From positions 62,001 through 126,000 of the forward strand of contig JAUIAM010000008.1 of NCBI GenBank assembly GCA_030425485.1: a DNA stretch of 64,000 nucleotides, written 5' to 3'. Each line of letters starts with the position of its first letter. Position 1 is the stretch's first letter. The DNA is from Verrucomicrobiia bacterium. Its GTDB lineage: Bacteria > Verrucomicrobiota > Verrucomicrobiia > Opitutales > Cerasicoccaceae. The position numbers and the translations under genes were made by a program. Shown in pieces: positions 43,185 through 55,048 of the stretch. Under the pieces are notes generated by a model that ran no database searches, had not been told where the DNA came from, and worked only from the letters and a program-made list of their open reading frames with translations.

Positions 43185-43212
43185 CCTAAGATCGGACGAT
43201 TTGTTGCAATAT
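43185..43212 (+). promoter_or_regulatory. Predicted ECF sigma promoter P6 (kinase gene)
   Basis: CCTAAG, 16 bases, CAATAT: five of six matches to each half of the motif shared by P1-P5, at the same spacing. The kinase ATG follows CAATAT after six bases, so the message may be almost leaderless, as predicted for P1. Confidence 0.55.
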
Positions 43213-43218
43213 CCCTAC

Positions 43219-44634
43219 ATGGCTCCTCCTGAGGACAGACCAACGCTGCGCCCGACACTCTACGCGATCCGGGACCTGCCCTACGAGATGGGGCCTTATC
43301 GGCTTATGCGCAAGCTGCCCGAAGGAATGGCAGAAGTCTACGAAGCCGAGGACCTAGAGACACCCCGCCGGGTAGCGGTGAAGTTTCTCCGCAACGACAT
43401 GCTCCTGACCGATGAAGCACGCGAACGCTTCCTGCGCGAGATCGAGCTCGCAGCCAACCTCGACCACGCGGGCGTCGTGCCCGTCCTCCGCTCCGGCGTC
43501 CACGAGGGCGTTCCCTACTACGTGATGCCCTTCATCGAGGGTGCGCGCCTGGACCACTATTTAAAAGACTCCTGTCCCACGCTGGACGGCAAGCTCCGCG
43601 TCTTCCGCGACTTGTGCCGCGTCGTCAACGCCCTCCACGCACGCGGCTGGGCCCACCGTGACCTCAAGCCGGGTAACATCCTGGTTGATCGCTACGGCAC
43701 CATCCGGCTGCTCGATTTCGGACTGGCCAAAGACACCCATGCGCTCAGCACGACAGACAAGCAGTACACCTTTCTCGGCACACTCGGCTACATGGCCCCC
43801 GAGCAGGCCAGCGGGGAAGCGGAAAAATCTGACAGCGCGGCCGATGTCTACACCATCGGAGTACTCATGTACCGCGAGCTCACGGGCGAAATGCCCCATG
43901 CCGACGACCCCAAACCCGAAGTCATGCTGCGACGCCTGCGCGAAGAAGACACCCGCCCGCTGCGATCATTTCGGCGCGACCTTCCCCCGCCCATCGAGAT
44001 TCTGATCGAGGATTGCCTCCGGCGGGACCCCGGCCAGCGCCCTCCCACCGCCGCCGCCGTGGAAGCCCGGCTCAGCACTTTTCTCAGCCGCAAACCTGTC
44101 CCCTCCCCCGCACCGCTCTTCATCATAGCCGCCCTCCTCATCGGAAGCGTCATCGGATACCTGCTCTGGCCAGATAGTGCTAAAGCAACAGATGCACCCA
44201 ATGATGAAACTCCCGCAATTGCGGCAGATGTTGCTACCCCCACGGATACCGAAACGGAAGCGGATCAAATCATCTCATTTATTGAAAGCAATGAAGCCAC
44301 GGCCCAACCCGAGCCCGCACTACCCCTCGTTGATGCCATCAGCACGCCCGTCCCGAAGGAGCTTTGGCCAAGTCTGTCCGCCCTGCAAAGCGAGCTGCGC
44401 ATTGACTTTTCCCGTCGTCGCCAAGCCGCCATCCTGCTTCACTTGCCCCATACTTCGCCTCATACCGTGACCGTGGAAGTCATGGACAGCAAAGGCGTAC
44501 AATCCTTTGAGCTTCGCCCCGGCCAAAGCACAGGCGTGTTTGTGGAAGCCGACAAGCCTGCGATTGTCAACGACGGCACCCAACGCCTACAGGTTGCCGT
44601 CAGTCCTCGCGAAGCAACTTACCTGAGCTTGTAG
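43219..44634 (+). CDS. Membrane-bound Ser/Thr protein kinase with degenerate glycine loop
   Basis: The protein is 471 residues. The Hanks-type kinase domain (about 20-290) has VAVKFL (ATP-binding Lys), the catalytic loop HRDLKPGNIL (about residue 146), DFGLAK (about 167) and YMAPEQASGEA. The usual glycine-rich loop is altered to KLPEGMAEVYEAED, one residue short and with glycines lost. One membrane helix (about 296-318) leads to an acidic linker and a small extracytoplasmic beta domain. Its promoter resembles that of the sigma regulon on the opposite strand, which includes an FHA protein, so a signalling link is likely. It converges with the next gene. Confidence 0.9.
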   Translation: MAPPEDRPTLRPTLYAIRDLPYEMGPYRLMRKLPEGMAEVYEAEDLETPRRVAVKFLRNDMLLTDEARERFLREIELAANLDHAGVVPVLRSGVHEGVPYYVMPFIEGARLDHYLKDSCPTLDGKLRVFRDLCRVVNALHARGWAHRDLKPGNILVDRYGTIRLLDFGLAKDTHALSTTDKQYTFLGTLGYMAPEQASGEAEKSDSAADVYTIGVLMYRELTGEMPHADDPKPEVMLRRLREEDTRPLRSFRRDLPPPIEILIEDCLRRDPGQRPPTAAAVEARLSTFLSRKPVPSPAPLFIIAALLIGSVIGYLLWPDSAKATDAPNDETPAIAADVATPTDTETEADQIISFIESNEATAQPEPALPLVDAISTPVPKELWPSLSALQSELRIDFSRRRQAAILLHLPHTSPHTVTVEVMDSKGVQSFELRPGQSTGVFVEADKPAIVNDGTQRLQVAVSPREATYLSL

Positions 44635-44658
44635 CGATTTTTTCGATACAAAGCCCGC

Positions 44659-45159
44659 TCACTTCGACACAACCCAAGCTCTGACAATACCGCGCGCCTC
44701 CATCCACCGGGCGAGGGCGAGTGCACTGGGGTTAGCTGCATCGGCCTGAAGCGCACGCGCCGTCTCCTGCCGCATGGAGCCCCAGTCACTGCGCATACGG
44801 GCGCGCTCGGCCGCATCCAGCGCAATACGCAGTGCCAGCTCTCGCTGACGGGTAATCGCGGCCAACAGCTCGTCCGCCTCCAAAACTTGAGCCTTAGTCG
44901 TAGCCTCATTTTTCAGGGCAAGCGCGAGTGTCTCGGCCTGACCAAAATCTCCGGAGCCGAGAAAATATCGCACCAGTGTAGCGGCATCCCGGGGAAGCCC
45001 GGACGATTGCTCATCACCAGCCTGCGCTTTAACTGGCGACAAGGAGGAGCGTTCAGCGCGTGGAGCATCCACCTCACCATCGCGTGGGTATGACGCGGCC
45101 GCAAGTGGCAAGGCCAGAATGAGCGTGACGAGAGAAAGGCCAGTGCGGGTAAACTTCAT
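44659..45159 (-). CDS. Small secreted helical protein of the sigma-controlled cluster
   Basis: The protein is 166 residues from ATG 45159, with signal peptide MKFTRTGLSLVTLILALPLA. The rest is alpha-helical and Ala/Arg/Glu-rich (LAAITRQRELALRIALDAAE), reminiscent of TPR-like helices. I recognise no family. It is the last gene of the minus-strand cluster and has its own promoter P1, whose -10 lies only six bases before the ATG. It converges with the kinase gene. Confidence 0.8.
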   Translation of the reverse strand: MKFTRTGLSLVTLILALPLAAASYPRDGEVDAPRAERSSLSPVKAQAGDEQSSGLPRDAATLVRYFLGSGDFGQAETLALALKNEATTKAQVLEADELLAAITRQRELALRIALDAAERARMRSDWGSMRQETARALQADAANPSALALARWMEARGIVRAWVVSK

Positions 45160-45165
45160 ATATGG

Positions 45166-45193
45166 GTATTGCCTCGCGGGCGGAAATCTTACG
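45166..45193 (-). promoter_or_regulatory. Predicted ECF sigma promoter P1
   Basis: On the minus strand GCGTAAGATT (CGTAAG at 45193-45188), 16 bases, then CAATAC (45171-45166). It lies in the short gap between the TonB-like gene and the last cluster gene. Transcription would begin at or next to the ATG at 45159. Confidence 0.65.
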
Positions 45194-45214
45194 CCAACAA
45201 AAGAACCAAGCGCT

Positions 45215-46006
45215 TTAAAGATAGATATCGAGCTGAATGGGGGAGGCAATCCCGTGAGCCGTCAAAGCACGATCCAGGCGCAGCACAAGCCGCCCGCCCT
45301 TGCGCTGATAGACACCCTCCAGCTTCATCCATTCCCCATTCGGTATGTTACCCGAGGCATAGCCATCACGCAGTTGCTGCGTAATGGCATTTTCGATACG
45401 CTGCGGCACGATCAAGACCAGCTTGAGTCGAGCGGCCTCGAAGTCACCCCGGTGCTTACCCAGCAAGGCCCGTGCCTCTGGCTCGTTGCTCAACTCACGC
45501 AGGCGGGGACTCATGCCGCGTAGGCTGGACTTCTCAACTGGCATCACCTGCCCCGACTGCGGGTCGATCTCAGCCAATAGCTTATCCCGCCCATCATCGT
45601 AGAGAAAGAAGCGCCCGCCGAGCTCGATCATGGCAGAGGTGTAGCCGTTGAAGCCTAGCGTCTGCCGGTATTCTGCAGTGATGGACGGGAGGCGGTTGGG
45701 AGCAGGTACGGCGGCGGGCGCAAGTGATGGCTGTGAATCAGCAGGAGAAAGCTCGGGGGCTTCATCCACTTCGGGTGGAGCCTGCTCAGGCACAGGGTCC
45801 GGAGTTTCAGGTTCCGGCTGTGGTGACTCTGGCGGGAGTGGCTCCGGGACATCCTCAGGTAAGACTTCTGCCGGCGGCACAGGCTTCACAGCTACTGTCA
45901 TCTGAGCGATCTCCTCCGGCTGAGGATCGGACTCCTCCACACGCAAGTGTGCCATGAGGAGCAGCAGCAGGGAGGCACCGAGTCCGAAGCTAATTACCCT
46001 TGTCAT
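45215..46006 (-). CDS. TonB-like anchored protein with proline-rich linker
   Basis: The protein is 263 residues. An N-terminal membrane anchor (ISFGLGASLLLLLMAHL) is followed by about 70 residues rich in Pro and Glu (for example EPLPPESPQPEPETPDPVPE), the architecture of TonB/TolA energy transducers. The C-terminal 150 residues (GFNGYTSAMIELGGRFFLYD onward) do not resemble the usual TonB C-terminal domain. It is downstream of ExbB/ExbD-like genes, so it may carry force from that motor to an unusual outer-membrane partner. This role is inferred from order and layout. Confidence 0.7.
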   Translation of the reverse strand: MTRVISFGLGASLLLLLMAHLRVEESDPQPEEIAQMTVAVKPVPPAEVLPEDVPEPLPPESPQPEPETPDPVPEQAPPEVDEAPELSPADSQPSLAPAAVPAPNRLPSITAEYRQTLGFNGYTSAMIELGGRFFLYDDGRDKLLAEIDPQSGQVMPVEKSSLRGMSPRLRELSNEPEARALLGKHRGDFEAARLKLVLIVPQRIENAITQQLRDGYASGNIPNGEWMKLEGVYQRKGGRLVLRLDRALTAHGIASPIQLDIYL

Positions 46007-46024
46007 GAAAAAATGGATACAGGA

Positions 46025-46432
46025 TCAGTCCAATGAGCGAAGATTTTCCAGCGCCTGTAGGTTGTTCAGAATCGCCTGCTGGATGTCCGGGCTGGCGCTA
46101 CCAGGAGCGCTCGCAACCGTCTCCGCCGGAGGCGCTGGCTGCGGCGTATGGCTGGCAGGCGGCGTGGGAGTCTTTGGTGTGGAGACAGGTTCTGGGCGGG
46201 CATCATCCGTTGAGGGCGCATGAGCTGCAATGGTGGGCTGCGCATCAGCTTGCTTGATAAGGCTATCAAGCACGGCGTCAGCCTGAGTCAGCTTTTCCTC
46301 AAAGAGCGCCTCTGCCTCAGCCATTGACTCAGGCAGCGCACCCTGCTCGCTGTACTGCGAATAGTAGTACCCTCCGGCAAAGCAGGCCGCGAAGGCCACG
46401 CCGAAAAGAAAAGTCTTAGCTAGATTAAACAT
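46025..46432 (-). CDS. Short anchored protein with coiled coil and Pro-rich segment
   Basis: The protein is 135 residues. An N-terminal membrane helix (TFLFGVAFAACFAGGYYYSQ) is followed by an acidic helical stretch (SMAEAEALFEEKLTQADAVL), a Pro/Thr-rich linker and a final helix (IQQAILNNLQALENLRSLD). I do not recognise the family. It lies between the ExbD-like and TonB-like genes on the same strand with gaps below 20 bases, so it is probably an accessory part of the same envelope complex. Confidence 0.75.
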   Translation of the reverse strand: MFNLAKTFLFGVAFAACFAGGYYYSQYSEQGALPESMAEAEALFEEKLTQADAVLDSLIKQADAQPTIAAHAPSTDDARPEPVSTPKTPTPPASHTPQPAPPAETVASAPGSASPDIQQAILNNLQALENLRSLD

Positions 46433-46450
46433 GTCGTGTCCGGGGTTGGG

Positions 46451-46894
46451 TTAAGATTGGGTTTCGTAGGCAAGCGATACTTCATCGATGCCGAGCTTGT
46501 GAAAGAGTCCGAGCAGAGCGGCGACCTCGCCATAGGGCACACTGGCAGAAGCCCGCAGTTCGATAGAGTCGATGCCCGCCGCGGCCAAACGCTCTTCAAG
46601 CGCAGCCAAGTCTGGGACATCCGCACCGGCTAGAAGCAGTGCACCATCCGCTCTGAGCGTAATGACTTCGTGCGCCTTACCCGCGCCGCTCAGGCTGTCG
46701 CCCGCTTCGATTTCGGGCAAATCGAGCGGGGGCAGTGTTTGCTCAGCCACTTCAGCCTCCGACTCGCTAGCTTCGCTCGTGTCTGCCAGGGTGGAAAGGA
46801 TCAGGAAGAGAAAGACGAGCACAAAGGCCAGGTCAACCAGCGCAGGGTGTACCCCGGCCTGACGACGCGCGCTTGCCAGCAAGACCTCATTCAT
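46451..46894 (-). CDS. ExbD/TolR-family proton-channel protein
   Basis: The protein is 147 residues. A single membrane helix (ALVDLAFVLVFLFLILST) contains Asp21 at the place of the essential proton-carrying Asp of ExbD. The periplasmic part ends in VPYGEVAALLGLFHKLGIDE and VSLAYE, matching the ExbD C-terminal fold. The start ATG at 46894 overlaps the ExbB-like gene by eight bases. Together they should form a motor driven by the proton gradient. Confidence 0.85.
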   Translation of the reverse strand: MNEVLLASARRQAGVHPALVDLAFVLVFLFLILSTLADTSEASESEAEVAEQTLPPLDLPEIEAGDSLSGAGKAHEVITLRADGALLLAGADVPDLAALEERLAAAGIDSIELRASASVPYGEVAALLGLFHKLGIDEVSLAYETQS

Positions 46895-47591
46895 GGTCGC
46901 CGTTCTCCGCAGGGATTTGTTTCGTAATCGGATTCGTTGCGGTAGGCTCTGCATCGGCGCGTTGACGCTCCAGCGCGTGCAGCGTGGTGTCGGCACCGAC
47001 TGCGAGCACGATGCCCACGATGGTCGAGAGCAGTGCCTGCCCCACCAGCGGGATGACCCCCAGCACGGCGGCCGTCGAGCCGGCCTGCACCTCCACAGCC
47101 AGTGTAGCTCCGGCCGAGGCCAGAGCAACGACGGTACCCAGCAGCCCAAGCAGCGGGCCGTTGCGCGAAATATAGGCCAGGTCGAGCAAGGCCGAGGGCT
47201 TGGCTTCCTGACGATGAACCATGTGGCGAATGACCAGGCGCACCAGCCAGATCGCAAGTGGTGCCAGCCCGATGAGGGCGACTCCGAGCGAGTCCCACGC
47301 GCGGTGCAGCAGGTGGCTGAGTTGCGCGAGCACGCCGCCCGTCTGCGGACCGGATAAAGTGCCCGCCAGCAGCCCGAGTGCGACGCTGCCAATCAGCAAG
47401 GCGGCAGTGCGCCCGGGGTGACGGCTTCCGGCGAAGATGCCGAGCACAAGCCCTCCCAGGATGAGCAGGGCAAACTTACCCAGCTTCAGCGCCACGGGGA
47501 TCAAGGCACAGGCCAGGACGGCGATGATGCCGTACACAGCAAACCGTACGGCCTGGCCGCGCTCAAGGGCGATGTCGCTGGACTTAGCCAC
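46887..47591 (-). CDS. MotA/TolQ/ExbB-like membrane protein
   Basis: The protein is 234 residues from GTG 47591, which overlaps the stop of the upstream gene by eight bases. Longer starts would run through that gene and are rejected. It has about six hydrophobic segments. The family core is seen as NGPLLGLLGTVVALASAGA and LVGQALLSTIVGIVLAVGAD, aligning with the ExbB proton-channel helices but diverged. The extra N-terminal helices are unusual. It precedes the ExbD-like gene with an overlap, the normal order for this motor. Confidence 0.8.
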   Translation of the reverse strand: MAKSSDIALERGQAVRFAVYGIIAVLACALIPVALKLGKFALLILGGLVLGIFAGSRHPGRTAALLIGSVALGLLAGTLSGPQTGGVLAQLSHLLHRAWDSLGVALIGLAPLAIWLVRLVIRHMVHRQEAKPSALLDLAYISRNGPLLGLLGTVVALASAGATLAVEVQAGSTAAVLGVIPLVGQALLSTIVGIVLAVGADTTLHALERQRADAEPTATNPITKQIPAENGDHE

Positions 47592-48126
47592 GGTTCGGCG
47601 CTCCCTTGTAACTGGGCTTGGAGTTCGTGGGCTCGGCCTGCTCAGGTTGGCTCTGAGCCAGCGGCTCACCGTCGGCGTCCGCCTTGGGGCCCTTGGTGGG
47701 AGCCTTCGGTTTGGCAGGCGAACCGTCGGCATTCAGCTCCACCTGAAATTTCTTACCCTCGACAAAGGTGGACGAATCGGCGTTCCAACCCGTCGTCTCA
47801 AGGTAAGCAAGCGATACCTTGCGCACGGCCACGTCTATATCATCGGTCTGGCCCATCGAGGAGGTGTAGAGGGTCATGTTCTCGCGGGTGGAGAGACGCA
47901 TCTCCAGCGTGATGACGCGCAGGAGCAGGTTGGGCAACTCGGGTGAGGCCTTATCGCGCAGCCAGATGTCGGCCATTTTTTCAACGGTTTCGTCGCGCTC
48001 GTTGATCCAGCGTTCGGTCAGTTTGGCGATGCTGTCATCCGTGCTGCTGGCCGCATAGACCGGGATGCCTGCCGTGCAAATCAACGCACCGGAGAGGATA
48101 AGTGTTTTTAGCAAAGTCGTTTTCAT
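47584..48126 (-). CDS. Secreted protein of unknown family
   Basis: The protein is 180 residues with a signal peptide (TLLKTLILSGALICTAGIPV, then YA). The middle part is mixed helix and strand (KLTERWINERDETVEKMADI; VITLEMRLSTRENMTLYTSS), and the last 50 residues are Pro/Lys/Glu-rich and probably disordered. I recognise no family. It lies between the 300-residue coiled-coil gene and the ExbB-like gene, sharing an overlap with the latter, so it is likely a periplasmic part of the same complex. Confidence 0.8.
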   Translation of the reverse strand: MKTTLLKTLILSGALICTAGIPVYAASSTDDSIAKLTERWINERDETVEKMADIWLRDKASPELPNLLLRVITLEMRLSTRENMTLYTSSMGQTDDIDVAVRKVSLAYLETTGWNADSSTFVEGKKFQVELNADGSPAKPKAPTKGPKADADGEPLAQSQPEQAEPTNSKPSYKGAPNRG

Positions 48127-48156
48127 GGGTGTAAACTTTCGTTGCGGGTGAATGGG

Positions 48157-49059
48157 TTAGTTGGGCAGGTTGCCGAGGCGGATTTTCCGCAGAATGCCCT
48201 CGTCGGTCTGGGTGCGATTGGCGGAGGGGTTATTAAGTGATGAGGAGCGCAGGATTTCGCCAAAGGCTTCGTTGCGCCCGGCCACGCCCTCGGTGAAGGC
48301 CTGCGGCACGCTGACGAGGTCGTGATCGCCAAAGCGGGCGTCACCGAGGCGAACAAAAAGCAGCTCGGTAATGCTGACCTGCGAACCCACCTCTAGCTGG
48401 TAGCGCTCCATCTCCAGAAGATCCTGTACCATGATGAGCTGGGCCGCGACTTCCTCCAACGCCGCTGTAGTGGTGTGAATCTGATTCAGCATGCCCTCGG
48501 AGTTACTCGATGAGGTGACCTCAAGCTGTTGGTACAGGAGGATGGCGGTCTGCTCGGTGGAGGCGAGCTGGGCCTTGGCCGCGGGGTTGTCGATGGTCTG
48601 ACTCAGCGAGTAGAGCACGGGGCCGACGTTCATCAAGGTGCTGCGCACCTGCTTGTCTTTTTGCTCAAGTCTTTTGGGGTCCATGATGCCCTCTTCATAA
48701 ACTTCCTGCAGGCGCTGTAGGTCGTCGACGACTGAAACGATGGTGTCGAGCGACTGGGCCAGGATGAGGCGGTCGTTGGCGTTCAGCTCGCTCCAGCCCT
48801 TGATGATCTCGCTCTTGATGGCGAGCTTCTGCTCGGGCTCGTCGGCCTCCTCCCACTGCTCGGCCAGTCCGTTCAGGTCAGCCCGAACTTCTGCCTGCAC
48901 CTGAGTCTTTTGCTCCATGGAGCTTTGCAGGTTGGTTAACTTCGAGTCGACGCTTTCGACCAGGCTGGCGAGGACATCGCCGGTTTCTTCCTTGGCCGTA
49001 GCGGTGCTCGCCGCAGTCAGGGCTCCGGCGAGGATAAAGGTGGTAAGGATACGTTTCAT
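48157..49059 (-). CDS. Periplasmic coiled-coil protein
   Basis: The protein is 300 residues with signal peptide MKRILTTFILAGALTAASTA, then TAK. Nearly the whole mature part is predicted helical: LVESVDSKLTNLQSSMEQKT, VVDDLQRLQEVYEEGIMD and TAALEEVAAQLIMVQDLLEM show heptad-like spacing. No enzyme motif is seen. It is the second gene of the transcription unit that starts with the lipoprotein and continues to the ExbB/ExbD/TonB-like genes. A structural or spanning role in the periplasm is plausible. Confidence 0.8.
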   Translation of the reverse strand: MKRILTTFILAGALTAASTATAKEETGDVLASLVESVDSKLTNLQSSMEQKTQVQAEVRADLNGLAEQWEEADEPEQKLAIKSEIIKGWSELNANDRLILAQSLDTIVSVVDDLQRLQEVYEEGIMDPKRLEQKDKQVRSTLMNVGPVLYSLSQTIDNPAAKAQLASTEQTAILLYQQLEVTSSSNSEGMLNQIHTTTAALEEVAAQLIMVQDLLEMERYQLEVGSQVSITELLFVRLGDARFGDHDLVSVPQAFTEGVAGRNEAFGEILRSSSLNNPSANRTQTDEGILRKIRLGNLPN

Positions 49060-49101
49060 AAAGGATGCGGGTTGGACGTAAATATCGGAGGTGGATAACA
49101 G

Positions 49102-49671
49102 CTATCCTTGGCTGGAAGCGCTGCGGCTAAAGGCAACCGTCTGCTCGTCGGGGCTGGCTACAGGGGCGTAGGCACTCTCCATCAGCTCACTGGCCGAGCC
49201 CTTGACCGGGGCGGGGTGATACGTGTCGCGAAGCTCGAACAGACGCTGGGTAGACTCATCCCAGGCGGCACGCTGGTAGCGGTCGGCCACCTTCTCGGCT
49301 GCGGTGAGGGTGCGGGAAAAACCCGCCATGTCGCCGGCCTTGAGATACTCATTGGCCGCACTCAGGTAGAGCTGGATGTTAAGCTCGTTGCGCTTGCTCT
49401 TCACCTGAGAAGCGGCGTCTTCGAAAATTTCTGCGGCCTGCTCGTGGCGCCCCTGCTCGCTCAGCGAAACGGCAAACTTGACCACCTGCTCGATCTTGTC
49501 GCCTTCGGGTGCGACTTTAGGATTCCACGTTTTGGAGTCCTCGATCCCGACGCCCATGTAGGTTGGTTCGGTGTCCTTCTGGGCAACTTCCGTGCTGCCG
49601 CAGCCAGTAAAAGTGAACAGGGCGACAAGGGCGCCGAGGCTAGTTAAGGTGATGGAGAATCGGTTTGTCAT
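49102..49671 (-). CDS. Lipoprotein with TPR-like helices
   Basis: The protein is 189 residues from ATG 49671. The signal ends in a lipobox-like FTGC with Cys24 as the acylated residue. The mature part has TPR-like helical pairs (VSLSEQGRHEQAAEIFEDAA; YLSAANEYLKAGDMAGFSRT). It begins the transcription unit leading to the ExbB/ExbD genes and has promoter P4 about 30 bases upstream and P5 further up. A role in assembling an outer-membrane complex fits the context. Confidence 0.82.
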   Translation of the reverse strand: MTNRFSITLTSLGALVALFTFTGCGSTEVAQKDTEPTYMGVGIEDSKTWNPKVAPEGDKIEQVVKFAVSLSEQGRHEQAAEIFEDAASQVKSKRNELNIQLYLSAANEYLKAGDMAGFSRTLTAAEKVADRYQRAAWDESTQRLFELRDTYHPAPVKGSASELMESAYAPVASPDEQTVAFSRSASSQG

Positions 49672-49699
49672 GGCAAGTTCTGGGTTGGTGTTCTGCGAT

Positions 49700-49727
49700 G
49701 TATTGCCCGCCCCACACACTTCTTACG
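49700..49727 (-). promoter_or_regulatory. Predicted ECF sigma promoter P4
   Basis: Minus strand CGTAAG (49727-49722), 16 bases, CAATAC (49705-49700). It precedes the lipoprotein gene starting at 49671. The base before CGTAAG is A here, while it is G in P1, P2, P3 and P5. Confidence 0.65.
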
Positions 49728-49849
49728 TGAGAATTTTTCCACCCCGCGACACGGTAGGATTTTTGCCGCCAGTAGTGGACAATGCCCGAGGAGCAACTTC
49801 TCGAAGCAGGCGTAACGGGCGCGTGTGGGTGGGCGTTCATGCTAAGAAC

Positions 49850-49877
49850 GTATTGCCCCTTTCGGCATAATCTTACG
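49850..49877 (-). promoter_or_regulatory. Predicted ECF sigma promoter P5
   Basis: Minus strand GCGTAAGATT (CGTAAG at 49877-49872), 16 bases, GGCAATAC (CAATAC at 49855-49850). It is 150 bases upstream of P4 in the same direction, in a gap without a convincing gene. It gives either a long leader for the lipoprotein operon or a separate small RNA. Confidence 0.6.
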
Positions 49878-49937
49878 CGAGAAAGACGGAAGTATGCGCC
49901 CGCCCTGGCGGCCTATTGTAAACCGCAGGCCTACCGG

Positions 49938-51464
49938 CTAACTGCGACGCCCCAGGAAGTACACGCCGACCAGTGCCAGCACGCTCCCCGCACCCAATGC
50001 GCTCCAGGCCCAATTCGGCAGCTCCGGCGAATCAGCTTCGGCCAAGGGCTCGGGCGGAGCATCCACGCGGGGAAATTCACTCTCCGCCAGTGAGGTCAAG
50101 CTGACCTTGGTCGGCTGCGTATCAGTTGGACCCTCGGAAGACTCAGCCACCCCCTCGCCGGGTACCGGATTTTGTGGGGCGGGTGGTTCCGTCTCAAGCA
50201 CCGCAACCTGCTCGGAAACCGTGCTCACTTCTGAGCCGATAACTTCCGCCTGCTCGGTGCTCGGTCGGGTAAGGTGATTTTCCCCGGAAAGGGTAAACTG
50301 GAGGGTGTTGTCCGTCCCGCGGTCATAGGCCCAGGCGGAACCGAGTCCGCTCAGGATGACGTCCTTGAGCTGCGCGGTGCCCAGGCGTGTTTCGACCTCG
50401 ATCAGGGAACGCCCACGGCGATCGTACTCGCGCGGCCAGACGCCCGTTACACGCGGATCGGCGAGGAGTGCGGCCTGCACGCGCTCAAAGTCTGCATCGG
50501 GCATTTCGATAAACTCCAACCGCTTGAGTGAACCGAGATCGGCCTCGGTCATCCACTGTGCGAGGAGCTGTCGATAGATGGCCCAACCACCGGGATAACG
50601 TACCGTGCCGTCGCCGGAGAGTTGCTCACGCAGGATTTCGCGGGCTGCATGGACGGGCGCATCCAGTGCGCTGTCGTAGCTGTCCTCCGCAGGCAGTGAC
50701 ACCGTGGCGATGACTTGCCCGTTGGGCCGCAGCAGTCGCAGATCAACGGCAAACGAAAACCCGTGCCGGGGCTTGAGCCCCATCAGGCTGCGCTCGCCGA
50801 GATAACGCCCGCGCACGGTGACCTGCAGGATGAAGTCGGCCTCCTGCGTGTAGTCCGCCCGGCGCAGTGCCGCCTGCACGGCGTCCCCCAGCACGGCGTC
50901 ACGCTCGGCCAGGGCATCGTCGTTGCGGTTGACCTGGGCCATGTCCACGACTTGGAGTTGGAGCTCGCGAGCACTTTCTTCAAACCACGGCTCGGCCAGG
51001 CTGTCAGAGAGGGGAACGTCCTCAACCAGCTCATCGACTTCGATCACGATGCGGGGCGAACCACGCAGGCGAACCATCTGCTGCAGGGCGACGATGTCGC
51101 GGCGGCCGGGCTCGCCCTCCCCCACTCGGGCGGAAATTGTCAACCGGTATATGCCGTCGCTCCCCAGGCCAGCGTCCAGCACCTCATAAGCGCGTACGTA
51201 ACCAAAGGACGCACTGAAAATGCGGTCGTACTCCAACTGAAAGTTGCGGGACTCGGACAGGCTCGCAATATCGACCCCGGCGCCGATGCGAACGGCATTG
51301 CGCAGAGCGTCGGCCAGGGCAAGTTCGCGTGCATGCGCGGAATCACCGGGCGCCATGCCCGTGGCTTCGACTTCGGTCTCGACCAGCTTCATCATGCCGC
51401 CAGCCCGCATGGATATGGGCAGCAGCACGAGGCTGAAAAGCAAGATGAAGGCGGGCAACTTCAT
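49938..51464 (-). CDS. FlgT-like envelope protein with C-terminal membrane helix
   Basis: The protein is 508 residues from ATG 51464, overlapping the previous stop by four bases. A signal peptide (AFILLFSLVLLPISMRAGG) is followed by a domain (EVEATGMAPGDSAHARELAL, then ALRNAVRIGAGVDI) like the N-terminal LPP20/FlgT domain of the Vibrio flagellar H-ring protein. Next come CsgG-like sandwich segments (GSPRIVIEVDELVEDVPLSD; LGDAVQAALRRADYTQEADF). A Pro/Glu-rich linker precedes a C-terminal helix (SALGAGSVLALVGVYFLGRR). There are no flagellar genes nearby. Confidence 0.7.
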   Translation of the reverse strand: MKLPAFILLFSLVLLPISMRAGGMMKLVETEVEATGMAPGDSAHARELALADALRNAVRIGAGVDIASLSESRNFQLEYDRIFSASFGYVRAYEVLDAGLGSDGIYRLTISARVGEGEPGRRDIVALQQMVRLRGSPRIVIEVDELVEDVPLSDSLAEPWFEESARELQLQVVDMAQVNRNDDALAERDAVLGDAVQAALRRADYTQEADFILQVTVRGRYLGERSLMGLKPRHGFSFAVDLRLLRPNGQVIATVSLPAEDSYDSALDAPVHAAREILREQLSGDGTVRYPGGWAIYRQLLAQWMTEADLGSLKRLEFIEMPDADFERVQAALLADPRVTGVWPREYDRRGRSLIEVETRLGTAQLKDVILSGLGSAWAYDRGTDNTLQFTLSGENHLTRPSTEQAEVIGSEVSTVSEQVAVLETEPPAPQNPVPGEGVAESSEGPTDTQPTKVSLTSLAESEFPRVDAPPEPLAEADSPELPNWAWSALGAGSVLALVGVYFLGRRS

Positions 51465-52567
51465 GGCTGAACAGGATAGGTGCTGAGGGTGATGGCGGCA
51501 CTGCCCCACTCTGCGCTGCCCGAGCCGTGCTCCAGTGCATTGGCCAGCGCCTCCGCCACCAGCGCGCGGTTTATCAGGGGGTAAGGCGTGGCGGGGTTGT
51601 CGGAGAGCACCCATTCCAGCAGTTGAAAAAGAGAAGACCTTTGCGTGCAGGCGATAACCTGAATGACATCCGTCCCATAGGGTGGCCCAGCCTGCAGGAC
51701 GTACTCCTCGCGGCGGCTGCCGGGAAGCTGGAGCGTCTGCCCGGCACGGACAAAGCTATCGGGCTGGAGCGCGTTAGGATAGAGCAAGAGTGAAGTGCCG
51801 TCGACCTGGTGAAAGAGCACGGCGACATAGGCATCAGCCGAGATTTTTACCCGCAGGTCGATGCGCTCGCCCGCCGCGAAGTCTGCCTTACCCTGCGCCA
51901 CGGCCAGAGTAACGGAAAAGTCATCCGGTACAGTGGCCATGCGCTGCTCGACTTCGATCAGGTTGGCCTCGCTGGCGTTCGCGGCGTAGGGCACAATGCC
52001 AGCCACGGGGGCGATGCCCACTTCGCCGTCTGGGCCGGGAAAAAGTTCTGCCGCGATATGGTCGACCGATATTTCGACACGGGCCTTGCTCACGCGCCCG
52101 GTGTCGAGCCAGACGAGCTCGGCAAAAACCGTCACGTAAGGATGCTTATAAAAATACCGACCGCGCACGATGCCATCGACCCCGGCAATGGTCAGCTCGG
52201 GAGAAATACCTCCCGTATCGACAAGACTGAGCTGCTGAAACTCGGCCAGTTCCTCAATTTCGTCGAGGCGATCATAAGTGATGATTTCAAAGGCGTCGGT
52301 TTTACTGAGAGCGTTTTCCAACTCCATGCGCAGGAGCGTGGAAAAGGGCGACTGCTGCCGGGTTTGCGCATAGACGAAGTTACCCATGCCAATGCGGACC
52401 GGGGCCTCCCCTTCGACCTCCTCGGCCAGGGTGCGGGCGAGGTAGTCATAGCTCTGCGCCGAGAGCGGTCCACAAGCCAGGAGCAGGCAAAGCAGCGTGC
52501 CGAGACGGGCGCGTGAGAACGCACCCGGCCCGGCGATGGCTTGCTTTAACTGTCCTAACAATTTCAC
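51461..52567 (-). CDS. CsgG/FlgO-like protein with DUF4384-like C-terminal domain
   Basis: The protein is 368 residues from GTG 52567, 13 bases after the previous stop. A TTG at 52618 is a poorer choice because it lies inside that gene. The signal peptide core is LGTLLCLLLACGPLSA. The N-terminal half (VRIGMGNFVYAQTRQQSPFS, then TLLRMELENALSKTDAFEII) matches CsgG/FlgO-like proteins that bind near the outer membrane. The second half (LRVKISADAYVAVLFHQVDG, LLLYPNALQPDSFVRAGQTL) is the DUF4384 sandwich often linked to Ser/Thr kinase and secretion loci. Confidence 0.75.
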   Translation of the reverse strand: MKLLGQLKQAIAGPGAFSRARLGTLLCLLLACGPLSAQSYDYLARTLAEEVEGEAPVRIGMGNFVYAQTRQQSPFSTLLRMELENALSKTDAFEIITYDRLDEIEELAEFQQLSLVDTGGISPELTIAGVDGIVRGRYFYKHPYVTVFAELVWLDTGRVSKARVEISVDHIAAELFPGPDGEVGIAPVAGIVPYAANASEANLIEVEQRMATVPDDFSVTLAVAQGKADFAAGERIDLRVKISADAYVAVLFHQVDGTSLLLYPNALQPDSFVRAGQTLQLPGSRREEYVLQAGPPYGTDVIQVIACTQRSSLFQLLEWVLSDNPATPYPLINRALVAEALANALEHGSGSAEWGSAAITLSTYPVQP

Positions 52568-52580
52568 GAATAAAAAGGAA

Positions 52581-52817
52581 TTACATCTCGGTTTCGTCGG
52601 CCTGCACGATAGGGTCAACGTAGACGGGCTTGGTCTCGGTCTCTGCCTCGGATGCCATGATCTCCTCGTCGACGCTGTTGTCGTTCAGGTCGGTGACGCT
52701 GTATTTGGAGTCGAGGGGGTTACTCTGCTGTGAGTTGCCAGCAGTGTCGCTATCGGCTGAGGAGCAACCGGCGAGCATGGCCAAGGCGGCGAGGAGTGTC
52801 AGTGCTTTCGTCATCAT
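52581..52817 (-). CDS. Small lipoprotein
   Basis: The protein is 78 residues. The signal MMTKALTLLAALAMLAGC ends in a perfect lipobox LAGC. The mature part is short, acidic and Ser/Asp/Glu-rich, without predicted structure. A second ATG one codon later and a TTG at 52829 are alternative starts. It lies between the LPP20-like and CsgG-like genes, with 13 bases to the latter, so it belongs to the same transcript started by P2. Confidence 0.8.
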   Translation of the reverse strand: MMTKALTLLAALAMLAGCSSADSDTAGNSQQSNPLDSKYSVTDLNDNSVDEEIMASEAETETKPVYVDPIVQADETEM

Positions 52818-52861
52818 GGTATTTATCAATGAAGTGAATCGGATTAGGTTAGGGCTACTTT

Positions 52862-53812
52862 CTAATCCACGACGACGCGCGAGTCGATTAGTTCCTTAAC
52901 AATAATTGTCCCGGGCCGAGTGCCTCGATCGCTCTGGTTCGCGCTCAACTCCAGGCTGCCGTAGTAGTCTGCCGGGCGAGGTGCGCCGTAGCCCGTTGCG
53001 CTGAGCGTGCGCTCGCGCTCCTGAATGTCCACATCGACGATTTCCCCGCCCGCGTAGTGTTCGATCACGCGGTAGATGTCGGACAACTTTACCTGCATGG
53101 TGACCTGGCAAGTGCCGTCCGGCCCATAAACGATATCAACCGCCTTGGCCCCTTTCAGGATCTGCGTGACGCGGGCGTGGAGCATGTCGGATTCGAGCAT
53201 GAAGTCCCGCACCTTGGTTCCGCTGTTGACCCGGACGCCGAGCATGCGCTGGGTGAGGCGACGGTAGGCGTCGATCTCCGCCGCACGCTTGGCCTGGATT
53301 TTAGCCAGACCGGGGCTGTCCGGCAGCGCGCCGTTGCCGAGCGCGTCAATGACGACATCCTCCGTGCGCTGGGTGAGTTGCTCGGAGTCGAGCTGGCGCA
53401 CGCGCTCGCCGTTAATCTCGCGGTGGGTATAGTAACGGGTAATCTCCTCCAGCACGGTGTGAAGCGTGACGGCCTTGACCACCCAGACCTGGCCATCCTC
53501 GCGGTAAATGGGCCCCTCCACCGTACGCGCGCCCTTGAGCAAACGATCGATGCGGGCGGCGACCTGATCGTCGGCCAGGACCAAATCATAGACGAGGGTG
53601 TCGGCATCAATGGCCACGCCATAGACGCGCTCCGTCAACCTGCGCGTGGCGTCCATCTCGGCAACCCAGATGGCCTTAACCACCGCCTCACTGTCAGCAC
53701 GTTGAAAGCGATAGGGCATGGACGAGGCGCTCCTTTCGCGAGGCTCGGCGTAGGCACTGAGCGCGAGCGGAGCAACAATCAGAGCGAAGAAAAGGGGGAC
53801 GATACGTTTCAT
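52862..53812 (-). CDS. Secreted protein with two LPP20/FlgP-like domains
   Basis: The protein is 316 residues from ATG 53812 with signal peptide RIVPLFFALIVAPLALSAYA. Two related domains are seen. The first contains EAVVKAIWVAEMDATRRLTE and LLKGARTVEG. The second contains KIQAKRAAEIDAYRRLTQRM and ILKGAKAVDI. The repeated A..E.DA.RRL.....G...(36-40 residues)...LKGA pattern is that of LPP20/FlgP proteins, which form outer rings around flagella in Vibrio and Campylobacter. It has promoter P2 and is followed by the small lipoprotein, CsgG-like and FlgT-like genes. Confidence 0.75.
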   Translation of the reverse strand: MKRIVPLFFALIVAPLALSAYAEPRERSASSMPYRFQRADSEAVVKAIWVAEMDATRRLTERVYGVAIDADTLVYDLVLADDQVAARIDRLLKGARTVEGPIYREDGQVWVVKAVTLHTVLEEITRYYTHREINGERVRQLDSEQLTQRTEDVVIDALGNGALPDSPGLAKIQAKRAAEIDAYRRLTQRMLGVRVNSGTKVRDFMLESDMLHARVTQILKGAKAVDIVYGPDGTCQVTMQVKLSDIYRVIEHYAGGEIVDVDIQERERTLSATGYGAPRPADYYGSLELSANQSDRGTRPGTIIVKELIDSRVVVD

Positions 53813-53855
53813 GCGCGGGTGGTTTGGCGTTACAGGACGACGGGTGGGCAGTCGT

Positions 53856-53883
53856 GTATTGCCGGGGCGTGGCAAATCTTACG
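53856..53883 (-). promoter_or_regulatory. Predicted ECF sigma promoter P2
   Basis: Minus strand GCGTAAGATT (CGTAAG at 53883-53878), 16 bases, GGCAATAC (CAATAC at 53861-53856). It precedes the LPP20-like gene, leaving a leader of about 37 bases. Confidence 0.68.
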
Positions 53884-53928
53884 CAAAAAATGCTGCGTGA
53901 AAAAAACAGCCGCCGTGTGGCCTCCGCC

Positions 53929-54390
53929 TCAGGCACTCAACGTGCCGTACTCGGGGAAGAACTCCACGTAAATAAAGACCGTCGTACCTGCCTCGATCAA
54001 ATCGCCGGAGACAAGGGTGCGCTCACCGGAGAGGGGCTCGCCGTTAATGCGTACCCCGCCAAGGGAGTCCATATCGCGCAGGCAGAAATCCTTACCCATC
54101 TGGGCGACCTCAAAATGTTGGCGCGAGAGGTAGGCATCCTCCACGCTCAGCCCGCCCTCGGCCTTGCGCCCGACGCGGGTGCTACCCTCGGCCAGCGGAT
54201 AATGGCCAATGCTCCGGTCTGCCCGGCGGTAGGCCAGCCAAGGACGTGCGTTGCTGGCCATGTCAACTTGTCCGATGACTTCGGCCGCGTACTTGAGGCG
54301 GTCAAAAAGACCACGCGGCGAACCGGGCGGCTCGCAAAGCGTTTCCGACAGCACATTCGGGTCAATATCCGGCTGGGGTGATGTTTCCAT
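53929..54390 (-). CDS. FHA-domain protein
   Basis: The protein is 153 residues from ATG 54390. The start is supported by P3, which would make the message begin within about eight bases of this ATG. The forkhead-associated domain fills the C-terminal 95 residues: STRVGRKAEG, AYLSRQHFEV and LRDMDSLGGVRINGEPL give the GR, SxxH and N(G) positions that read phospho-threonine peptides. It lacks a signal and should be cytoplasmic. It lies directly after the sigma gene in a cluster that also has a Ser/Thr kinase. Confidence 0.9.
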   Translation of the reverse strand: METSPQPDIDPNVLSETLCEPPGSPRGLFDRLKYAAEVIGQVDMASNARPWLAYRRADRSIGHYPLAEGSTRVGRKAEGGLSVEDAYLSRQHFEVAQMGKDFCLRDMDSLGGVRINGEPLSGERTLVSGDLIEAGTTVFIYVEFFPEYGTLSA

Positions 54391-54397
54391 GTTCTGG

Positions 54398-54426
54398 GTA
54401 TTGGCTATCGAGGGGAAATTCTTACG
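54398..54426 (-). promoter_or_regulatory. Predicted ECF sigma promoter P3
   Basis: Minus strand GCGTAAGAAT (CGTAAG at 54426-54421), 17 bases, CAATAC (54403-54398). The spacing is one base longer than in the other sites. The TAA stop codon of the sigma gene lies inside the CGTAAG half. Confidence 0.58.
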
Positions 54427-55048
54427 CGTCGGGTGGGACAAGGTCGGCCTCCTGCATCAGGCGGGCCACGATTTTTTGCAGCATCTCAATCGTGCGGGCG
54501 CGGATGGCGTAGAGCGCATTGACCTTGAGACCGTAGCGGCTCGCAACCTCCTCAGCGGGCTGCTTCTCGATCACGTACTCGCGGAAGGCCGCCAGCGTAT
54601 CGGGCTTGATGCGGGGGTTGCCCCGGAGCTCCTCCATCGCGGCGAGGTAGAGCGACTCCTGCCAAGCCTGAAGATTGGGCGATTCCTCCGGCTCGGCGGT
54701 AGAAGCCAAGCGATCAATGGGGGCCTGGCCATCCGCGTGGGCCGGGACTTCGAGCGCGATTTCCTTGAGGCGCTTTTGCTTGCGAAAGTGTTTGAGGGCC
54801 TGGCGGTGAACGATGGTGATGAGGAAATTGCGGAAACGCCCCTTGCTGCGGTCATACTGAAAAGTGGGGAGCTGCCGCATGAGCTGCATCATGGACGCCT
54901 GCAAGACATCCTGCGCATCGGCGTCGCCCAGCCCGATTTTTCGGCAGTAGCCAAGAATCGGTGCCCAGTAAACGGCGTAAAACTCTTCCCAGGCACGATT
55001 ATCACTCGTGCGAACTTTTTCCAGAAGTGAGACGCGCGTTCGTTCCAT
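54422..55048 (-). CDS. ECF-type RNA polymerase sigma factor
   Basis: The protein is 208 residues. Region 2 is AWEEFYAVYWAPILGYCRKI, DADAQDVLQASMMQLMRQLP and FRNFLITIVHRQALKHFRKQ. A linker follows, then region 4 (KQPAEEVASRYGLKVNALYA, IRARTIEMLQ). No anti-sigma factor gene is adjacent. The neighbouring FHA protein and the kinase suggest control by phosphorylation, as known for EcfP/PknT in Vibrio. The genes on both sides share one promoter motif (P1-P6), so this sigma is the natural candidate to read it. A weak possible match (CGTAAG, 16 bases, CATAGC) ends about 28 bases before its start. Confidence 0.9.
   Translation of the reverse strand: MERTRVSLLEKVRTSDNRAWEEFYAVYWAPILGYCRKIGLGDADAQDVLQASMMQLMRQLPTFQYDRSKGRFRNFLITIVHRQALKHFRKQKRLKEIALEVPAHADGQAPIDRLASTAEPEESPNLQAWQESLYLAAMEELRGNPRIKPDTLAAFREYVIEKQPAEEVASRYGLKVNALYAIRARTIEMLQKIVARLMQEADLVPPDA

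Follow-up and report, generated by a model that had tools for sequence, protein, structure and literature searches.

A gene cluster of a Verrucomicrobiia bacterium carries repeated copies of a two-box motif, CGTAAG-N16/17-CAATAC, that is very probably recognised by the ECF sigma factor whose gene lies in the same cluster. This factor would drive an FHA-domain gene and a set of envelope genes and would be tied to a Ser/Thr kinase. In the proposed mechanism, CGTAAG serves as the -35 element and CAATAC as the -10 element of promoters read by the sigma factor encoded at 54422-55048. A preliminary description of the window (the whole stretch of 64,000 nucleotides that was analysed) had proposed an ECF sigma regulon, and the computational follow-up supports this reading: the motif tracks a clade of sigma factors and the distance from the boxes to the start codons fits a -10 element.

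Sites and genes of the cluster

Five perfect copies of the motif were found in the window, all on the minus strand and each directed toward a gene, together with a sixth, variant site on the plus strand before the kinase gene. They lie where they had first been described, four of the perfect copies with a spacer of 16 bases and one with 17, and 100 dinucleotide shuffles of the window yielded 0 matches. The flanking bases first reported were also recovered, with a G 5' of four of the five perfect sites and GG 5' of CAATAC in four of the five. In a matrix scan of the window the six sites scored 23.0-28.5 and the next best 14.0, which bears out the original impression that the window holds no other good pair. 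The predicted sites are:

43185-43212, plus strand: variant site CCTAAG-N16-CAATAT, 6 bases 5' of the kinase start codon
45166-45193, minus strand: perfect site, N16, 6 bases 5' of the start codon of the 166-aa secreted protein gene
49700-49727, minus strand: perfect site, N16, 28 bases 5' of the lipoprotein gene
49850-49877, minus strand: perfect site, N16, 178 bases 5' of the same lipoprotein gene
53856-53883, minus strand: perfect site, N16, 43 bases 5' of the LPP20-like gene
54398-54426, minus strand: perfect site, N17, with the FHA gene starting 7 bases past the second box

These sites face genes, as stated in the preliminary description. Its claim that nearly every transcription unit begins with one has to be narrowed, since no motif site lies upstream of the sigma gene itself and the sites at 49700 and 49850 share one gene. 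The genes of the cluster are:

43219-44634, plus strand: Ser/Thr kinase with HRDLKPGN and DFG motifs (Pfam Pkinase, E 1.2e-39) and a single membrane helix predicted at residues 298-316
44659-45159, minus strand: secreted protein, 166 aa, no Pfam match
45215-46006, minus strand: gene first named TonB, no Pfam match, conserved in a same-genus genome
46025-46432, minus strand: small membrane-anchored protein predicted from sequence, 135 aa, weak relative in L047
46451-46894, minus strand: ExbD/TolR family (Pfam ExbD, E 1.7e-9)
46887-47732, minus strand: MotA/TolQ/ExbB family (Pfam MotA_ExbB, E 1.7e-7), start codon uncertain
47584-48126, minus strand: secreted protein, 180 aa, no assigned family
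48157-49059, minus strand: secreted protein, 300 aa, no assigned family, present in 2/286 class genomes
49102-49671, minus strand: predicted lipoprotein, first gene of the ExbB/ExbD unit, ortholog in L047
49938-51464, minus strand: FlgT_N-like secreted protein (Pfam match below cut-off), relatives in a same-genus genome
51461-52567, minus strand: DUF4384 protein (E 9.1e-17)
52581-52817, minus strand: small lipoprotein predicted from sequence, 78 aa, no Pfam match
52862-53812, minus strand: LPP20-like secreted protein (weak Pfam match below cut-off), ortholog in a same-genus genome
53929-54390, minus strand: FHA-domain protein, 153 aa (Pfam FHA, E 2e-10; fold model), predicted core target
54422-55048, minus strand: ECF sigma factor, 208 aa (TIGR02937 sigma70-ECF, E 3.3e-17, residues 19-192; Pfam Sigma70_r2, E 2.8e-12)

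Some of the first gene names did not survive. The name TonB finds no Pfam match, and the gene read as CsgG matches DUF4384 only; LPP20 and FlgT have the corresponding Pfam matches (LPP20 and FlgT_N), both below the Pfam cut-offs. The ExbB/ExbD unit at 44659-49671 is compact and includes several secreted proteins without an assigned family. At the boundary between the sigma and FHA genes, the TAA stop codon of the former is embedded in the first box of the latter (54421-54426), an arrangement also found in two distant loci (L142:10620-10625 and L144:738-743).

The preliminary description had left its reading open to refutation if the motif proved as common in unrelated coding regions. When spacers of 14-19 bases were allowed, six perfect copies were counted in the genome (G000; 3,813,870 bases) against one for a reversed-pattern control, and the cluster accounts for five of the six. 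The sixth (contig C37, L048:5348-5375, minus strand) lies 85 bases 5' of a predicted lipoprotein gene that was found only in this genus in a family search (3/10 genomes, two of them weak); no ortholog of this gene was found in G008, and the weak relatives present in G007 and G009 are without the motif, all three genomes being of the same genus. Beyond the perfect copies, one-mismatch copies in the whole genome numbered 4 with N16 (control 4) and 10 with N17 (control 4). Two-mismatch N16 copies were at control level (129 versus 142), so the detectable regulon looks small and local, and a large hidden regulon was rejected. A site GGTAAG-N16-CAATAC before an McsA-like gene on contig C48 is unproven, its orthologs in G007, G008 and G009 being without such a site, while a C56 site before a lipoprotein gene (second box CAAAAC) and one C24 site were set aside as background level. 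In this genome the sigma factor would transcribe the neighbouring FHA gene, the units of ExbB/ExbD and of LPP20/DUF4384/FlgT-like proteins, one secreted protein gene and the C37 lipoprotein gene, and probably the kinase gene.

The sigma factor, the FHA protein and the kinase

The window sigma factor is a short protein of the ECF (group 4 sigma-70) type that matches the ECF profile over residues 19-192, with Pfam finding region 2 only. In a tree of 64 sigma factors it falls into one clade of 21 members with support 99/98, internal support being weak in places, and it appears to belong to a Verrucomicrobiota-centred group of kinase-associated ECF factors that retained their promoter code. The FHA gene lies just behind the sigma gene in 17 of the 21 clade members, and three more FHA loci are found outside the clade. 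A kinase-like gene occurs within 6 kb of the sigma gene in 47/64 loci; in the window it stands about 10 kb away. The Pfam scan of 17 proteins of the window cluster matched no anti-sigma domain, a search that a diverged anti-sigma factor could escape.

The closest known systems are those of ECF43, namely EcfP/PknT of Vibrio parahaemolyticus and EcfK/PknS of Xanthomonas citri, in which, as here, the sigma gene lies near a Ser/Thr kinase gene and is accompanied by no recognised anti-sigma gene. They differ in belonging to another phylum, and in the window the FHA gene is both neighbour and likely target. According to the portions consulted of two papers, ECF43 members are without the DxxD acidic motif of region 2.2 and carry uncharged residues instead (PMC8999054, PMC13147305). 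An ECF43-like activation, in which the kinase phosphorylates region 2.2 and restores the missing negative charge, would suit the frequent presence of a kinase gene near the sigma gene and the single Ser or Thr that follows the QE position in 20/21 clade members. It was nonetheless judged unlikely, the acidic residues of region 2.2 being mostly kept, contrary to ECF43: the second acidic residue of DxxD (D or E) is present in 21/21 clade members and QE in 19/21, the window protein having DAQD and QA. The kinase would probably set the activity of the sigma factor by analogy with ECF43 systems, yet not by restoring the charge of region 2.2, because that charge is mostly present already. The kinase-associated ECF59, ECF61, ECF62 and ECF217 of Planctomycetes keep DAED-like residues, as described in the part of the source consulted (PMC8999054), and by that description resemble the present sigma factor in adjoining a kinase gene.

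Upstream control most likely originates with the membrane Ser/Thr kinase, whose phosphorylation the FHA protein would read. Behind the kinase domain, a lectin-like Laminin_G_3 domain was found in six of the six kinases encoded just upstream of a clade sigma gene (L139, L140, L141, L142, L145 and L146), and simple hydropathy predicts a membrane helix in four of them; these domains suggest a carbohydrate signal. The kinase ortholog of G008 is a TIR-kinase fusion (L137:3761-5617, minus strand) adjoining a patatin-like phospholipase gene (L137:6347-7438, minus strand). An immune or defence role was considered and not retained: PADLOC kinase models do match, but as broad kinase matches, and the TIR-kinase and patatin genes of G008 are suggestive only.

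The model of the window FHA protein (mean pLDDT 84.6) matches solved FHA domains, OdhI and GarA among the best, its helices 11-19 and 25-41 being less certain than the FHA fold. Of the phosphothreonine-binding residues of FHA domains, this copy has GR and the invariant S and H and lacks the Asn normally found in the NG motif. An N-terminal helix containing an invariant Arg is common to the FHA proteins. GarA and OdhI carry a conserved N-terminal double-threonine tail and act in 2-oxoglutarate metabolism. The window protein resembles them as a small FHA protein beside kinase signalling and differs from them in its N-terminal helices, in the lack of a conserved double-threonine tail (only part of 16 aligned FHA proteins have an N-terminal Thr at the corresponding position) and in its link to a sigma factor. 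In canonical ECF/anti-sigma pairs, too, a small gene stands directly behind the sigma gene and is apparently switched on by the sigma factor; here the product is an FHA protein instead of a known anti-sigma domain. The FHA gene occupies the usual place of an anti-sigma gene, and its product may gate the sigma factor by phosphorylation. A tentative extension, the less probable part of the model, is a phospho-controlled circuit without a classical anti-sigma factor. In it, the kinase with its outside domain would signal to the sigma factor, and the FHA protein would bind the phosphorylated sigma factor or kinase as a phosphorylation-gated brake or co-activator. The sigma factor would be bound by the conserved N-terminal helix of the FHA protein, and its own invariant N-terminal Thr would be a candidate docking site; Thr at position 4 and Ser/Thr at position 7 (window numbering) are invariant in the clade.

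Distribution of the motif and distance to start codons

The preliminary description had suggested looking for the motif in related genomes, where it follows the sigma clade. A perfect copy within 6 kb of the sigma gene was found at 10 loci, all inside the 21-member clade, against 0/43 outside. With variant sites included, 13/21 members carry one, the variant pattern having been picked only after the sites had been seen. The remaining 8/21, among them both sigma factors of genome G094, have neither a perfect nor a variant motif within 6 kb, and G094 contains 0 perfect copies overall. In a species collection, 49 of 61 loci were scanned (L187-L198, 12 partial or non-PVC matches, were left out), and the perfect motif occurred in 7/15 of the closest named-genome loci (9 sites) versus 0/34 others, with 0 for the reversed control; two of these seven, L144 and L149, are genomes that the analysis had already covered as G054 and G168.

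The association extends to the FHA gene. Excluding the window, 9/19 FHA-adjacent loci had a perfect motif against 0/44 others (p = 3.9e-6), and a site stands between the sigma and FHA genes in 10 clade loci, seven of them perfect and three variant. The near-perfect sites before FHA genes are those of L140 (CATAAG), L141 (GAATAC, also seen at another site of this locus) and L151 (CCTAAG). The FHA gene would be the most frequently retained target across genomes, accompanied by lineage-specific envelope and secreted genes. At other loci some of the putative targets are large secreted proteins that carry Ig-like, BACON or sulfatase-modifying-enzyme domains, and another is an amylase/oxidoreductase-like protein. 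At locus L147 a weak divergent site precedes a gene (L147:8295-9803, minus strand) whose secreted product combines a caspase domain and a PPC domain.

Among genomes of the class, 53/286 contain at least one perfect copy. At least two copies were found in 3/5 genomes with a sigma factor placed in the clade by the tree versus 2/280 others (Fisher p = 2.6e-5, G000 left out); 35 class genomes have a relative of the sigma factor, 20 of which were not placed in the tree. In the same genus, G008 has an orthologous cluster whose sigma factor is 56% identical. Its perfect sites stand before the lipoprotein and FHA genes, one-base variants precede a secreted-protein gene and a trypsin-like gene, and one further perfect copy lies elsewhere in the genome; no good site was found upstream of its kinase gene. 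The genomes G007 and G009 have neither a match to the sigma factor at E 1e-5 nor a perfect site. A genome of the same family outside the set of 286, G006, contains three perfect copies (control 1) that count against the sigma-regulon reading; its only sigma relatives are weak and were not placed in the tree.

The position of the sites relative to genes was also informative. For 28 hand-chosen, perfect or near-perfect sites tied to the clade, comparison was made with 29 chance copies, i.e. perfect copies from other class genomes (L076, from a clade genome, was dropped from an initial 30). Weaker sites were left out of the 28 (L049, L132, L053:7067, L147:9858, L148:2204, L138:12348, L050:13879, L047:13779 and L052:3519). 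A start codon lay 5-10 bases past the second box in 12/28 sites and 0/29 chance copies (p = 4e-5), and outside the genus in 7/17 versus 0/29 (p = 4e-4). An ATG occurred within 100 bases in 22/28 versus 10/29. Location inside an ORF of at least 150 codons did not clearly separate the sets (18/28 versus 25/29, p = 0.07), in part owing to the abundance of ORFs in GC-rich DNA. The end of a -10 box usually lies about 7 bases before the transcription start, so that gaps of 6-7 bases, as before the kinase, 166-aa secreted protein and FHA genes, would make the start codon the first bases of the mRNA, which would be leaderless. The spacing fits promoters, and several targets are predicted to be transcribed without a leader.

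Could the boxes belong to another sigma factor, or bind an activator, with the local ECF sigma factor a co-inherited bystander? We infer recognition by the window sigma factor from sequence, which leaves room for this reading, as do the 8/21 clade members without a motif nearby. It is very unlikely, since the motif tracks the sigma clade where other cluster genes differ (the 300-aa protein occurs in only 2/286 class genomes) and both the N16/17 spacing and the distance to start codons are in keeping with a -35/-10 pair. That the sites were recently copied within the cluster along with duplicated gene starts, and are not selected elements, is barely credible: five of the six perfect copies do fall within 9.3 kb, but the boxes are constant while spacers differ among copies and from genome to genome, so that the sequences largely refute it.

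Meaning for kinase-associated sigma factors

In the titles and abstracts searched, a coverage that excludes the main ECF classification (NAR 2021), neither the motif nor the sigma-FHA module was described, and beyond ECF43 that literature seems to have explored little of which promoters the kinase-associated ECF sigma factors read and which genes they control. Under the sigma-regulon model, the sequence gives the promoter, a recurrent target and candidate partners, all of which reappear in several lineages of Verrucomicrobiota, and many predicted kinase-regulated sigma factors become testable with one reporter. A sigma/promoter pair with such an unusual code could serve as a separate channel in synthetic circuits. 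The module may also represent a substitute for the anti-sigma factor, and its promoters would form a natural leaderless set.
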